Source: Actinomycetota bacterium (lineage in GTDB: Bacteria > Actinomycetota > Acidimicrobiia > Acidimicrobiales > JAJPHD01). From it: DNA of 55,665 nt. A program made the position numbers and the translations under genes. The stretch lies in assembly GCA_021325455.1 (NCBI GenBank), contig JAJPHD010000025.1, positions 1-55,665 on the forward strand, written 5' to 3'. Below, in pieces: positions 43,267 through 48,172 of the stretch (the stretch's first letter is position 1; every line of letters starts with the position of its first letter). The notes under the pieces were generated by a model. It ran no database searches. It worked only from the letters and a program-made list of their open reading frames with translations, and was not told the origin of the DNA.

Positions 43267-43435
43267 CCGAGCCGGGACGCCTGTGGGTGGCCCCGTCAGT
43301 GCGAGGGGGGGATGCGGTGCTCCCAGCTGGGCAGGCACATGAGGACATGACACCCGTGGGGCGGGCGCGGTTCCCCGTTGGGCCCGTGCCGGGCGCCGCC
43401 GCCTCCTCGGGTGGCAAGGCGGGGGGTGCCCCGCT

Positions 43436-43441
43436 TAGGTT
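43436..43441 (+). promoter_or_regulatory. -10-like box TAGGTT, leaderless start at 43450
   Basis: TAGGTT lies 8 nt before GTG 43450 of the DUF6941-like gene. Confidence 0.5.
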
Positions 43442-43449
43442 GGCCGCCC

Positions 43450-43893
43450 GTGAAAGTGACCATGATGCTTTGTGACGCGGCCCAGGTGGCGGAGGGCAAG
43501 CTGTTCATACTGGGAGGGGGCTGGAGCATGATCGGCCCCGCTCCCACCCCCTCAGCCATCGCCTTGAAGATCGAGGTGGGCTGGCACGAGGCCGAGATGC
43601 CCCACCACTGGGAGCTGTTCCTCCAGGACCAGGACGGCGCTGACGTCACCGTGGAGACGCCGGAGGGACCGCGCCCGGTGGAGGTGCGGGGTGACTTCCA
43701 GGTGGGGCGGCCCCCCGGAGTACCTGAGGGGAGCCCGGTGGACGTGACGCTGGCCATCAACCTGGGGCCCCTGCCCCTCCAGCCGGCCAGCCGCTTCACC
43801 TGGCGGCTCACGATCGACGGCGAGACCGACGAGGGCTGGACCCTGAGCTTCAGCACCCGACCCCCCGAGGCCGAGATCCCGGAGGCGATGTAG
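43450..43893 (+). CDS. DUF6941-like protein
   Basis: This 147-aa protein begins KVTMMLCDAAQVAEGKLFILGGGWSMIGP, a pattern I associate with the actinobacterial DUF6941 family (LCDxAQVxxGKLxILGGGW). It looks mainly beta-strand, with no TM helix or signal peptide. No function is known. GTG 43450 lies 8 nt after TAGGTT and has no RBS, consistent with leaderless translation; the frame open to 43378 is not needed. Confidence 0.72.
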   Translation: MKVTMMLCDAAQVAEGKLFILGGGWSMIGPAPTPSAIALKIEVGWHEAEMPHHWELFLQDQDGADVTVETPEGPRPVEVRGDFQVGRPPGVPEGSPVDVTLAINLGPLPLQPASRFTWRLTIDGETDEGWTLSFSTRPPEAEIPEAM

Positions 43894-43965: not shown

Positions 43966-44481
43966 ATGACCACCTATGAGCGGCCCTTTGGCCGGTGCCT
44001 GGAGGACTTCGAGGTGGGGGACGTCTACCGCCACTGGCCGGGCAAGACCATAACCGAGTACGACGACCATCTGTTCTGCATGATCACCATGAACCACCAC
44101 CCCCTGCACACCAACACCTGGTTCGCCGAGCGGGACACGGTGCACGGGCGCAACGTGGTGGTGGGCAACCTCGTCTACTCGCTGGTGCTGGGCATGAGCG
44201 TTCCCGATGTGAGCGGTTCCGCCATTGCCAACCTCGAGGTGGAGTCACTCGTCCACCGCCACCCGACGTTCCACGGAGACACCATCTACGCCGAGTCCCG
44301 GGTGCTGGACGTGACCGAGTCGAGGTCGAAGCCCGACCGGGGGGTCGTGACGGTGGAGACCAAGGGCTTCAACCAGCGGGGGGAGGAGGTGTGCTCCTTC
44401 CGGCGAAAGGTCATGGTCTGGAAGCGGGAGGCCCAGCCGCCCCGGCGCCGGCCCTACGAGGAGGGTGTGTGGGGACCCTAG
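43966..44481 (+). CDS. Mesaconyl-CoA hydratase-like MaoC protein
   Basis: This 171-aa single hot-dog hydratase has EDFEVGDVYRHWPGKTITEYDDHLFCMITMNHHPLHTN, where the MNHHPLH segment replaces the usual DxNPxH. The NVVVGNLVYSLVLGMSVPDVSG and THGDTIYAESRVL-like blocks match, from memory, the MaoC protein of the Streptomyces ethylmalonyl-CoA cluster. It would hydrate mesaconyl-CoA to beta-methylmalyl-CoA, the step between the Mcd-like and malyl-CoA lyase-like products encoded nearby. GCGGGAGC precedes the ATG. Confidence 0.82.
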   Translation: MTTYERPFGRCLEDFEVGDVYRHWPGKTITEYDDHLFCMITMNHHPLHTNTWFAERDTVHGRNVVVGNLVYSLVLGMSVPDVSGSAIANLEVESLVHRHPTFHGDTIYAESRVLDVTESRSKPDRGVVTVETKGFNQRGEEVCSFRRKVMVWKREAQPPRRRPYEEGVWGP

Positions 44482-44560: not shown

Positions 44561-44596
44561 TTCAGCTGAGAGCTTCAGCTGGTAGGGGTTTCAGCT
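44561..44596 (-). repeat. AGCTGAA repeats across the selenoprotein stop codon
   Basis: On the minus strand AGCTGAA occurs at the stop codon of the selenoprotein gene (44596-44590) and again at 44580-44574 and 44567-44561. It is a small version of the stop-spanning duplications seen elsewhere. The 109-nt convergent gap 44482-44590 holds nothing else that I can support. Confidence 0.55.
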
Positions 44597-45139
44597 CGTG
44601 AGGGCGGCCAGAAGGCTGTCCAGGGCTCCGTCGGCCAGGGCGGCCAGCTCCTCGTCGGTGCGGTCCTGGATGGGGTGGGCCACGTAGACCGCTGCGGGCT
44701 CGACCCCGAGCGACCGGGCCTGGGCGGCCAGGGCCTCTCGGAACTCTTCGGAGGCCACGATCACGCCGGGCACCCCTCTTGACTCCAGGTCGGCGATGTC
44801 GTGCACACTGCACGACGTGCAGCTTCCTCAATCGGCCAGGGCTTCTATGACCACATCACAAGTGGTGGCGATGCGGTGCCTGAGGTCGACGGGAGCCGGC
44901 TTGGTGAAGGTGGGCTTGGAGTAGCGCTCCACCCGCAGACCCCGGCGGGACAGGTGGTCGGCTATGCGGTCCAGGAAGACATCGCCCCGGGACTTGGAGA
45001 TGTCCAGGAGACCGATGGTGGCTCCCGACAGGGAGGCCGGCCGGGGGGCCCGGGGCCGCTTGCTGGGCACGCGCTCCGACGTGGGGTCCAGTAGGACCCG
45101 GGGCCCCGGAGGGGGGGTCGAGGTCCCTGCGGTGCTCAT
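44591..45139 (-). CDS. UGSC-family selenoprotein (in-frame TGA = Sec104)
   Basis: The reading frame from ATG 45139 meets TGA at 44830-44828 and continues open to TGA 44593-44591, giving 182 aa if the first TGA is read as selenocysteine. The junction reads VVIEALAD-U-GSCTSCSVHDIADLE, the hallmark of the UGSC family, whose relatives have Sec or Cys at this site. Sec104 and Cys107 form a UxxC redox pair, with Cys110 nearby. AAGGAGG (45147-45153) lies 7 nt before the ATG, which overlaps the upstream gene by ATGA. A SECIS-like hairpin follows the TGA. The protein is soluble; its reaction is unknown. Confidence 0.9.
44798..44816 (-). promoter_or_regulatory. Candidate bacterial SECIS hairpin
   Basis: On the minus strand GTCGTGCA-GTG-TGCACGAC forms a perfect 8-bp stem with a 3-nt loop that starts with G. 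The loop begins 19 nt after the in-frame TGA, in the range expected for a bSECIS bound by SelB. It is also protein-coding (TSCSVHD). A competing smaller hairpin CTGCAC-GTC-GTGCAG lies closer to the TGA. Confidence 0.7.
44828..44830 (-). other. In-frame TGA recoded as selenocysteine
   Basis: Minus-strand TGA codon 104 of the UGSC-family gene. Conserved family sequence continues without interruption on both sides in the same frame, which excludes a frameshift and argues for recoding. Confidence 0.85.
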
Positions 45140-46593
45140 GCTCTGACCTCCTTCGTCACGGGCTCGCTGCCCGCCGGGCCGGACACCCAGCTCCCGATGA
45201 TGGCCGAGAACAGGCCGGCACGCCCGCCGGCGTGCACCACCAGGAGGCCTCCCGGGCGGAGCTTGGGCAAGGTGCGGTTCGTCTCTGCCCAGCGCGGCGG
45301 GATGCCCTCCGCCATGCCACCGGCTCCTTGGACCAGCTCCTCGACCGGCAGCTGGAGCAGCTCGTCCAGCTCGGCTCGCAGCCGGTCCTTGCTCCACCCC
45401 GCCCGGCGGAACACCTCGCCGTGCTCGGGAGAGACGACCAGCACGGCGTCGTAGGCCACCGGCCACTTGGGATGGGCCACCGTGCGCAGGCAGGCGGCGT
45501 AGGTCCGCACCAGGGAGGAGGGCTCCCGGGAAAGCTGGTCGAAGACCGCCCGTGGGGCCTCGCCGGCGAACACCGTCACGGCCGAGGTGCCCGGTGGGAG
45601 CCCTCTCTCCACCGACAGGGGCTCCCAGGGGGAGCCCTGCTCGTCCTCGGCGAAGCAGAATGTGTACTTCCCCGGTTGGCCAAGGGTGGCCCGGTCCACC
45701 TCACCCGGTCGGCCGCCGCCCACATTGCGGATCACCAGCTGCAGCGCCCGTCCGATGGTGGCGTTGGCCCTGTTCCCCGGGCCGAGGGCGTTGATGCCGC
45801 TGTTCATGCCGATGGCCCTGGCCAGCGGCCCGTTCACGATCACCACCGGGCCGGGGAAGTACGTGGTGGCCAGCACGCCGTGGGCATTGAACTCGGGAGT
45901 GCACGCCGCCTCCACCGCGGCCAGGACCACAGGTAGGTACTCCGGGCGGCATCCGGCCAGGACGGCGTTGACTGCCACCTTCTCCACCGTGGCCTCGGCC
46001 ATGTCGGGGGGGACCACCGCCACCACCTCGCCGGGGTCCCGGCTGGTCCCGCTCAGCATGCGCGCCACCCGCGCCTCGGTGGGGGCCACGACCGGGAGTC
46101 CGTCGGTCCAGCCCCGCTCGAACATGGCCTCGGCCTCGTCCTCCAGCTCGCCCAGGGGGATGCGCCTGGACGCCAGGTGCGCCCGCGCCCACTGCCCGGC
46201 TCGCCGGTCCTCCAGGGCGGGGTCCTGGGTCAGCGATCCGCAGCCGGGACGATACCCGGGCAGCCCGGGACCGAGACCCGTCGAGGAGCACACCTTCTCC
46301 CACTCGTCACGGGACCACCCAGCGGCACGGGCCACCTCCCTTCCCCCGGCCAGGCGCACGACGGTGGGGACGGTGTCGATGCCCAGGGCGAAGGACAGGT
46401 CCAGGCTCGAGTCGTCAATGCACGACAGCCCTGGGGGGAACCCCGGGCCGTCCTGGGTCAGGATCGTGAGGGACGCCCCGCCCTCGGCCAGCTGGGCCAG
46501 CACAGGGACGATCAGCCGGCAGGTGGGGCAGTCGGACCGGACCACCACGGCCAAGCCGTCGGGCAGGGCCGCCCGGGTGGTGAAGGTGGTCAC
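45136..46593 (-). CDS. Thioredoxin-like domain protein paired with the UGSC selenoprotein
   Basis: This 485-aa protein has an N-terminal thioredoxin-like domain with a CPTC redox motif (VVVRSDCPTCRLIVPVLAQL) and a thioredoxin-style VPTVVRLAGGREV strand. A large domain of unknown function follows (about 130-480) with recognisable blocks GWTDGLPVVAPTEARVARML, AVLAGCRPEYLPVVLAAVEA, FPGPVVIVNGPLARAIGMNSG and NRANATIGRALQLVIRNVGGG. GTG 46593 was chosen because TACGGT is 7 nt upstream; GTG 46602 is also in frame. It is the first gene of a two-gene operon and overlaps the selenoprotein by 4 nt, so it is likely its redox partner. Confidence 0.78.
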   Translation of the reverse strand: MTTFTTRAALPDGLAVVVRSDCPTCRLIVPVLAQLAEGGASLTILTQDGPGFPPGLSCIDDSSLDLSFALGIDTVPTVVRLAGGREVARAAGWSRDEWEKVCSSTGLGPGLPGYRPGCGSLTQDPALEDRRAGQWARAHLASRRIPLGELEDEAEAMFERGWTDGLPVVAPTEARVARMLSGTSRDPGEVVAVVPPDMAEATVEKVAVNAVLAGCRPEYLPVVLAAVEAACTPEFNAHGVLATTYFPGPVVIVNGPLARAIGMNSGINALGPGNRANATIGRALQLVIRNVGGGRPGEVDRATLGQPGKYTFCFAEDEQGSPWEPLSVERGLPPGTSAVTVFAGEAPRAVFDQLSREPSSLVRTYAACLRTVAHPKWPVAYDAVLVVSPEHGEVFRRAGWSKDRLRAELDELLQLPVEELVQGAGGMAEGIPPRWAETNRTLPKLRPGGLLVVHAGGRAGLFSAIIGSWVSGPAGSEPVTKEVRA

Positions 46594-46600
46594 CCCGGCC

Positions 46601-46606
46601 ACCGTA
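46601..46606 (-). promoter_or_regulatory. -10-like box TACGGT, leaderless start at 46593
   Basis: On the minus strand TACGGT lies 7 nt before GTG 46593, the first gene of the UGSC operon. Confidence 0.45.
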
Positions 46607-46668
46607 TTGCGCTCGGAAGGGACTCCGGTCCACGATCGGTAACCTCCCGTGCGAAGAGAAGGGGGAGA

Positions 46669-47511
46669 GTGCTGAAGGTCACGTTCTACGGAGTGCGAGG
46701 GTCGTGCCCGTGCTGCGGCGACCGCATCCGCCGTTACGGGGGCAACACGGCCTGCGTGGCCCTCGAGTCACCCGGAGAGCCCCCCATTCTCCTGGACCTG
46801 GGAACGGGGCTACGCAGCTTCGGGGAGGGCCAGCCCACCGACGGCAGCTTCCGGGGAGCGGCTCTGGTGAGCCACCTCCACTGGGACCATGTCCAGGGCC
46901 TCCCGTTCTTCCCACCCATAGACCGTGAAGGGGCGGTCATGGACGTGTACGGCCCCGGCCAGGACGGCACGACCCTCGCCGACTGCTTCGACGCCTTCAT
47001 GCGCCCCCCGTACTTCCCGATCAGGGCCAGCGACCTGCGGGGCCGGGTCCGCTTCCACGACCTGGCTGACGAGGATCTGGCCATCGGGGGGGCCAAGGTC
47101 CGGGCCCGCCAGGTCCCCCACCTCGGCGCCACCCTCGGCTATCGGGTGGAGCGTGACGGGACCAGCCTCGCCTACGTGAGCGACCACCAGGCTCCGCCGG
47201 GCCTGGACCGAGTGGACCCGGCCGTCTTGGAGCTGTGCGACGGCGTGGACCTCCTGATCCACGACGCCCAGTACACACCGGCCGAGTTCGCCGGCAAGGA
47301 GGGCTGGGGCCACTGCACGGTCGATTACGCCCTGCTCGTCGCCAAGGAGTCCGGGGCTCGTCGCTTGGCGCTGTTCCACCATGATCCCGCTCACGATGAC
47401 GACGACATCGACCGGCTCCTGGAGCAGGCCCGGCGGCGCGCAGCCAGCACGGGGCTCGATGAGGTCGTCGCCGCCGCCGAGGGCCTGGTGATCCAGCTGG
47501 ACGGTGCCTGA
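46669..47511 (+). CDS. MBL-fold metallo-hydrolase
   Basis: This 280-aa metallo-beta-lactamase-fold protein has the SHLHWDHVQG metal motif (HxHxDH), an early YGVRGSCPCCGDRIRRYGGNTACV segment, SDHQAP and FHHDPAHDDDDID. It looks like the cyclic-nucleotide phosphodiesterase/RNase Z-like branch, often found with GGDEF or redox systems. GTG 46669 has an AAGGGGGAG stretch just before it. It is divergent from the UGSC operon, with 75 nt between starts, and overlaps the flavin reductase gene by 8 nt. Confidence 0.85.
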   Translation: MLKVTFYGVRGSCPCCGDRIRRYGGNTACVALESPGEPPILLDLGTGLRSFGEGQPTDGSFRGAALVSHLHWDHVQGLPFFPPIDREGAVMDVYGPGQDGTTLADCFDAFMRPPYFPIRASDLRGRVRFHDLADEDLAIGGAKVRARQVPHLGATLGYRVERDGTSLAYVSDHQAPPGLDRVDPAVLELCDGVDLLIHDAQYTPAEFAGKEGWGHCTVDYALLVAKESGARRLALFHHDPAHDDDDIDRLLEQARRRAASTGLDEVVAAAEGLVIQLDGA

Positions 47512-48172
47512 GGATACGCCGCCCGTGCCCGAGGGCCCTGGGACAGCGCCCCTGGCTCCCGGTGGCGCCACTGGCCCCTTCGAGGGCGGTGGTCCCCGCG
47601 CCACTGGCCCCTTCGAGGGCGGTGGGCCCGGCGCCACGGGCCCCTTCGAGGGCGGCCCCGTGGAGCTGTCGGGGACGGAGCCGGTCTCGCCCGACCAGGC
47701 TCGCTTCCGGGAGGTCCTGGGCCACTTCGTGAGCGGGGTGACCGTGGTCACCACCATGGGCCAGGACGGGCCCCATGGGTTCACCTGCCAGGCCTTTGCG
47801 GCATTGTCCCTTTCCCCGGCCCTGGTCGTGTTCGCCCCTGCCAGGACGTCCCTCACCTGGCCCCGCATCCGGTCTGCGGGGGTCTTCTGCGTGAACGTCC
47901 TGAAGGACGACCAGGAGGCTCTGGGCCGGGTGTTCGCCACCAAGGGTGACGCCAAGTTCGACGGGGTGGGGTGGGGCCCGAGCGCCAAGGGCTGCCCGAT
48001 CCTGGCCGGGGCACTGGCCTGGGTGGAGTGCGAGTTGGCGGATGTGCACGACGCCGGGGACCACTTGCTGGTGATCGGGCGGGTGCTCGACCTGGGGGCG
48101 GGGGAGGGCCACCCCCTCGTGTTCTATCGGGGCGGCTTCTACCGGGGCGGCTTCGGCGCCTTCCCGGCCTGA
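47504..48172 (+). CDS. Flavin reductase-like protein
   Basis: This 222-aa protein has an N-terminal 55-residue repeat region and then a flavin reductase split barrel: FREVLGHFVSGVTVVTTMGQDGPHGFTCQAFAALSLSPALVVF, FCVNVLKDDQ, and a C-terminal HLLVIGRVLDLG with FYRGGF twice. It would reduce FMN or FAD for a partner monooxygenase. The start GTG 47504 lies inside the MBL gene; a start past the repeats is conceivable. The repeat region encodes three ATGPFEGG units and is probably disordered. Confidence 0.83.
   Translation: MPEDTPPVPEGPGTAPLAPGGATGPFEGGGPRATGPFEGGGPGATGPFEGGPVELSGTEPVSPDQARFREVLGHFVSGVTVVTTMGQDGPHGFTCQAFAALSLSPALVVFAPARTSLTWPRIRSAGVFCVNVLKDDQEALGRVFATKGDAKFDGVGWGPSAKGCPILAGALAWVECELADVHDAGDHLLVIGRVLDLGAGEGHPLVFYRGGFYRGGFGAFPA
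47565..47656 (+). repeat. 33-bp tandem repeat (2.8 copies) in the flavin reductase N terminus
   Basis: Units at 47565, 47598 and 47631 are near-identical and encode ATGPFEGGGP-type peptides. The 33-bp period keeps frame, so copy number could change without breaking the gene. Confidence 0.88.

Follow-up and report, generated by a model that had tools for sequence, protein, structure and literature searches.

The UGSC proteins were reported as a major selenoprotein family in a 2008 survey of ocean metagenomes (PMC2398784, in its available text), and they appear among the families listed in the accessible portion of a 2026 review (PMC13188914). The family is already catalogued and is biochemically uncharacterised. 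A further point of reference is provided by GrdB and PrdB, known enzymes of thiol-driven reduction which, like the system described here, include another subunit encoded in their operon, in the case of GrdB and PrdB the pyruvoyl-forming GrdE or PrdA; a UxxCxxC motif is carried by GrdB proteins (PMC6778437; likewise PMC13188914, as far as its text was available). The window analysed here comprises 55,665 nt of contig JAJPHD010000025.1 (GCA_021325455.1) from an Actinomycetota bacterium (Acidimicrobiales; JAJPHD01) and harbors a UGSC gene together with an upstream partner gene. The partner, its selenocysteine (Sec) form and the GrdB-like alignment presented below are not mentioned in the available parts of PMC2398784 and PMC13188914.

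The UGSC gene and its family

Read through its in-frame TGA, the gene yields a protein in which the residues around this codon are EALAD-U-GSCTSCSVHD. PF24696 matches residues 16-181 (E 2.3e-44; 152 bits against a cut-off of 25), and the NF041046 profile gives 152.8 bits against a curated cut-off of 125. As a single Pfam match spans both sides of the TGA and the NF041046 cut-off is passed, the coherent frame across the codon is not due to chance. The window protein shares with both family models its whole length, the UGSC motif and the family position of Sec, and no difference was found that would exclude membership. Since the family is already known from the 2008 survey, Pfam, NCBIfam and the 2026 review, the gene represents a new member of it. 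Positions 44591-45139 almost certainly encode a UGSC-family selenoprotein, for which we infer Sec insertion itself from the sequence.

Start codon, strong ribosome-binding site, ATGA overlap and both TGA codons lie where an initial annotation had placed them, as verified base by base (Table 1), and its assignment to the UGSC family with coherent protein on both sides of the TGA is borne out by the profile matches. The same annotation had anticipated that ordinary gene calling would return two fragments; without recoding, we likewise obtained 103 aa, plus a possible 71 aa from GTG 44806. Its proposal of Sec at residue 104 is supported, and the UxxC centre that it described is part of a fuller motif, UxxCxxC. 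This motif reads UGSCTSC in the window, and most relatives have CxxC or C at the third position. Apart from the fuller motif, the inclusion of the upstream gene in the system and the long-standing cataloguing of the family go beyond that annotation.

Table 1. Positions of the UGSC gene, the partner gene and their elements within the window.
Feature	Position	Strand	Basis
Probable UGSC-family selenoprotein gene, 182 aa, predicted Sec at residue 104	44591..45139	-	PF24696 and NF041046
Start codon ATG of the UGSC gene	45139-45137	-	Base-by-base reading
Ribosome-binding site AAGGAGG of the UGSC gene	45147..45153	-	Seen directly; 7 nt from ATG
In-frame TGA, predicted Sec codon 104, first residue of UxxCxxC	44828..44830	-	TGA in 110/110 relatives; Cys in five divergent homologues
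Terminal TGA of the UGSC gene	44593-44591	-	Base-by-base reading
SECIS-like hairpin GUCGUGCA-GUG-UGCACGAC	44798..44816	-	Fixed loop position and compensatory changes
Partner gene, 488 aa, ATGA overlap with the UGSC start	45136..46602	-	Homologue upstream in 107/110 loci
Thioredoxin-like domain, partner residues ~16-107, CPTC at residues 25-28	46282..46557	-	PDB profile match; fold comparison
Cys121 codon of the partner PGCGS motif	46240..46242	-	TGA here in 12 relatives
Partner core domain, residues ~156-488	45139..46137	-	Also fused to UGSC or alone without thioredoxin domain

The upstream partner gene

The stop codon of the partner gene (TGA 45138-45136) overlaps the UGSC start codon, and a 4-nt overlap of this ATGA kind occurs in 53 loci. 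The partner homologue is encoded on the same strand as UGSC and is directly adjacent to it in nearly all of the loci where it is found upstream; at L020, L022 and L130 it lies about 1 kb away. No homologue was found at L023, L026 and L106 among the 110 loci, the contigs of L106 and L023 ending near UGSC. Within the class, the A2 profile identified the partner in 88 of 247 genomes. Other flanking genes were not conserved beside UGSC in most loci examined, and a search of the UGSC neighbours for a clue to the substrate gave none. The neighbours in the window, all on the plus strand, encode a DUF6941 protein (43378-43893), a MaoC-like dehydratase (43966-44481), a metallo-beta-lactamase-fold protein (46177-47511) and a flavin reductase-like protein (47504-48172).

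In two loci, L136 and L137 (genomes G133 and G058), a single open frame that contains the UGA encodes both UGSC and the partner core, and the Sec codon resides within a GCUGSCTP motif. Similarly, the UGSC/Unknown_1 fusion of the 2008 survey (Figure S1A in the available part of PMC2398784) joins UGSC to an uncharacterised domain, whereas the window has two separate genes. Unknown_1 plausibly corresponds to the partner core. The UGSC protein and its 488-aa partner are very likely to be functionally paired, as judged from sequence data.

The N-terminal 100 residues of the partner, including CPTC, resemble thioredoxin (PF00085): a partner profile matched thioredoxins in the PDB (E 4.2e-5), and fold comparison with thioredoxins gave VIA-align Z values of up to 9.4 over residues 8-107. 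In contrast to thioredoxin, the window partner stays below the curated cut-offs and is fused to a core that is both large and new. Neither Pfam nor NCBIfam contains a family that matched this core, and NCBIfam offered no family covering the partner beyond weak thioredoxin matches. When the partner was used for a fold search, thioredoxins made up most of the matches, with class I fumarate hydratases at low confidence; the search has thus barely probed the core. The partners at L074, L077 and L079 consist of the core only and lie beside UGSC without a thioredoxin domain, indicating that a built-in thioredoxin donor is not essential.

The PGCGS motif is conserved in the partner. Its Cys, present in the window, is replaced by TGA (PGUGS) in 12 relatives, the loci L041, L080, L085, L091, L093, L099, L105, L111, L115, L119, L120 and L203. 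In most of these copies the UGA is followed by a SECIS-like hairpin such as GUCGACCC-CGGGC-GGGUCGAC, with the loop about 20 nt away, and a compensated variant, GUCGAUCC-CGGGC-GGAUCGAC, also occurs. Some copies, for example those of L099 and L111, contain a mismatch and fold otherwise; in four Cys copies folded alongside, including that of the window, the hairpin is absent. PGUGS has no entry in the 119-family table of the 2026 review (PMC13188914, available part), which includes the families of the Haft 2023 and 2025 papers, and a text search for PGUGS returned nothing. It is therefore likely that the PGUGS partner constitutes a new selenoprotein family, with an earlier mention in those papers being possible. 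TGA codons near the G210 and G133 partners were rejected as Sec codons, being located upstream of the start. The partner match at L031 contains stops.

Fold of the UGSC protein and possible chemistry of the pair

Structural modeling of the UGSC protein (pLDDT 90.2) predicted an alternating alpha/beta domain of five beta-alpha units with a flavodoxin-like fold, in which Sec104 is positioned just before the helix following the third strand. Foldseek and VIA-align comparisons returned flavodoxins, CheY-like receivers and other Rossmann-type proteins (Z 9 to 11.6), with no thioredoxin among the matches listed. The model does not suggest the thioredoxin-like fold that had been put forward for UGSC in the available text of PMC2398784. 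Matches to flavodoxin or receiver-type folds provide little information on UGSC function. Sequence searches against the PDB yielded nothing significant for UGSC and nothing for one GrdB homologue.

Profile comparison by hhalign aligned UGSC residues 90-182 with the C-terminus of GrdB/PrdB, Sec on Sec, at 91% probability, compared to <1% for reversed and shuffled controls and 57% with the motif masked, all of these values being single pairwise comparisons of shallow alignments. With GrdB/PrdB (PF07355, TIGR04483), UGSC shares a UxxCxxC motif placed between the end of a strand and the helix after it, and then a GIP-strand element. In contrast to these proteins, none of 50 UGSC members produced a PF07355 match at E up to 1, the C-terminal lobe alone aligns, and profile comparison of the partner with GrdB gave nothing. 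In the absence of a PF07355 match, UGSC is not filed as GrdB; the PF07355 model extends no further than the Sec codon and therefore misses the UGSC-like part. Among actinobacterial GrdB-/PrdB-like proteins (L169-L177, L179-L198), the PF07355 match ends right before the TGA, and the Pfam model is apparently truncated at the Sec codon. GrdB copies among these read UGTGTRCG and lack the first Cys of UxxCxxC. By analogy, we consider it about evenly balanced whether the chemistry of UGSC is that of a GrdB/PrdB-like reductase.

We moderately favour the view that UGSC and its partner form a two-component, thiol-driven Sec reductase. SelB, tRNA-Sec and the hairpin after the UGA would insert Sec at residue 104. 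Based on the known chemistry of GrdB/PrdB (PMC10298544) and on the domain content, it might be hypothesized that the selenolate of Sec104, located where a helix begins, would attack the substrate, after which a selenenyl-sulfide with Cys107 or Cys110 would form. The partner thioredoxin domain (CPTC) might then reduce this bond, perhaps through a Cys/Sec relay at PG(C/U)GS, while the core domain may help to bind the substrate. Such a redox relay would be favoured by the CPTC domain together with PG(C/U)GS, which appears to hold Sec with its own hairpin in the 12 relatives.

A less probable explanation, which we regard as rather unlikely, is that the two proteins act as a general thiol-disulfide or peroxide-removing couple with no specific organic substrate, in which UGSC would bear a peroxidase-like Sec centre and the thioredoxin domain of the partner would reduce it. 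According to the accessible text of PMC13188914, most uncharacterised UxxC selenoproteins are thought to be thiol oxidoreductases, and the thioredoxin domain of the partner would fit such a role. However, the flavodoxin-like UGSC model has yielded no evidence of likeness to peroxiredoxin or thioredoxin among the matches listed, this reading would leave the large, conserved core of the partner unexplained, and the paralogous UGSC copies in single genomes are better suited to specific substrates. UGSC matches number 10 in G012, 6 in G118 and 5 each in G040, G058, G069 and G099; the many copies per genome in some relatives are suggestive of different substrates. Improbable to a greater degree is a reversed division of labour, with the partner as the enzyme and UGSC as its Sec-containing carrier of electrons or selenium. 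The core is indeed the larger, highly conserved component and is kept where the thioredoxin domain has been lost; on the other hand, Sec in UGSC is nearly invariable and Cys versions are rare, as would suit a catalytic nucleophile, and Cys121 of the partner is replaced by Sec in a minority only.

Returning to the thiol-driven reductase, the wider proposal of a new two-subunit Sec reductase class, distantly akin to GrdB/PrdB and with the partner as an undescribed selenoprotein family, is tentative and in our estimate slightly less than evenly probable. If true, some species would use two selenocysteines, one per subunit. A partner that is nearly always present and brings both its own thioredoxin domain and a second Sec site would make a testable two-component enzyme out of an orphan, and the pairing shows which genes to co-express, two adjacent genes that ordinary gene calling splits at their Sec codons. 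It is the two-component system and the second Sec site of the partner that are worth following up.

Decoding of the TGA codon

UGSC is present in 67 of 148 genomes of the order. Codon 104 is TGA in every one of the 110 relatives for which a script read the motif, and exactly one internal TGA occurs in nearly every UGSC copy among the matches listed for the 148 genomes. Thus, the TGA does not stem from a sequencing error, one of the points that the initial annotation had marked for checking, and with the protein conserved on both sides a pseudogene was likewise discarded. Homologues ending at the TGA, also named there, were not seen among the relatives, and five divergent UGSC copies for which no stop was reported carry Cys exactly in the Sec column, as the annotation had suggested looking for.

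Following the UGA, the sequence reads GGAAGCUGCAC-GUCGUGCA-GUG-UGCACGAC, with a stem of 8 bp and a GUG loop that begins 19 nt from the UGA with G as its first base. This hairpin lies within the description of bacterial SECIS elements in the available part of PMC13188914, namely a G in the first two loop positions at 16-37 nt after the UGA. The bare hairpin rules also hold for 206 of 439 control stretches, and the minimum-energy fold of 45 nt of the window prefers other pairs; the case for the hairpin therefore rests on its fixed position and on covariation. The loop is located at 19 nt in 109 of 110 UGSC homologues. The pair +18/+24 is C-G in 104 homologues and G-C in six, and +15/+27 is G-C in 93, A-U in 13 and G-U in four. 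In the six G-C cases, Cys110 is changed to Trp (TGC to TGG) and a silent substitution in a Val codon (GTG to GTC) re-establishes the pairing, a combination that is difficult to account for by the protein sequence.

Of the genomes with TGA-type UGSC, 61 carry selA and three do not, compared to 25 with selA among the other 84 genomes (Fisher p 2e-17, phylogeny ignored). That the TGA is an ordinary stop, giving a 103-aa protein or two separate proteins, is extremely improbable: GTG 44806 could start the 71-aa product and the three genomes in question (G001, G062, G069) lack a selA match, but their assemblies are 78-84% complete, and the invariant TGA, the protein conservation on both sides, the covarying hairpin, the existence of Cys variants and the complete Sec machinery all speak against it.

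The genome to which the window belongs (2.95 Mb, 96% complete) encodes the sel genes that the initial annotation had proposed to search for. No tRNA-Sec was found in the window itself; elsewhere, a tRNA-Sec (67.2 bits, cut-off 47; tRNA-SeC with anticodon TCA according to ARAGORN) resides on one contig with selA and selB within about 18 kb. SelA (413.6 bits), selB (256.7 bits) and selD (353.3 bits) each exceed their cut-offs. The SelD of this genome (L018, C17:383263-384186) is itself a selenoprotein, with one TGA in the catalytic loop GAGUACKL.
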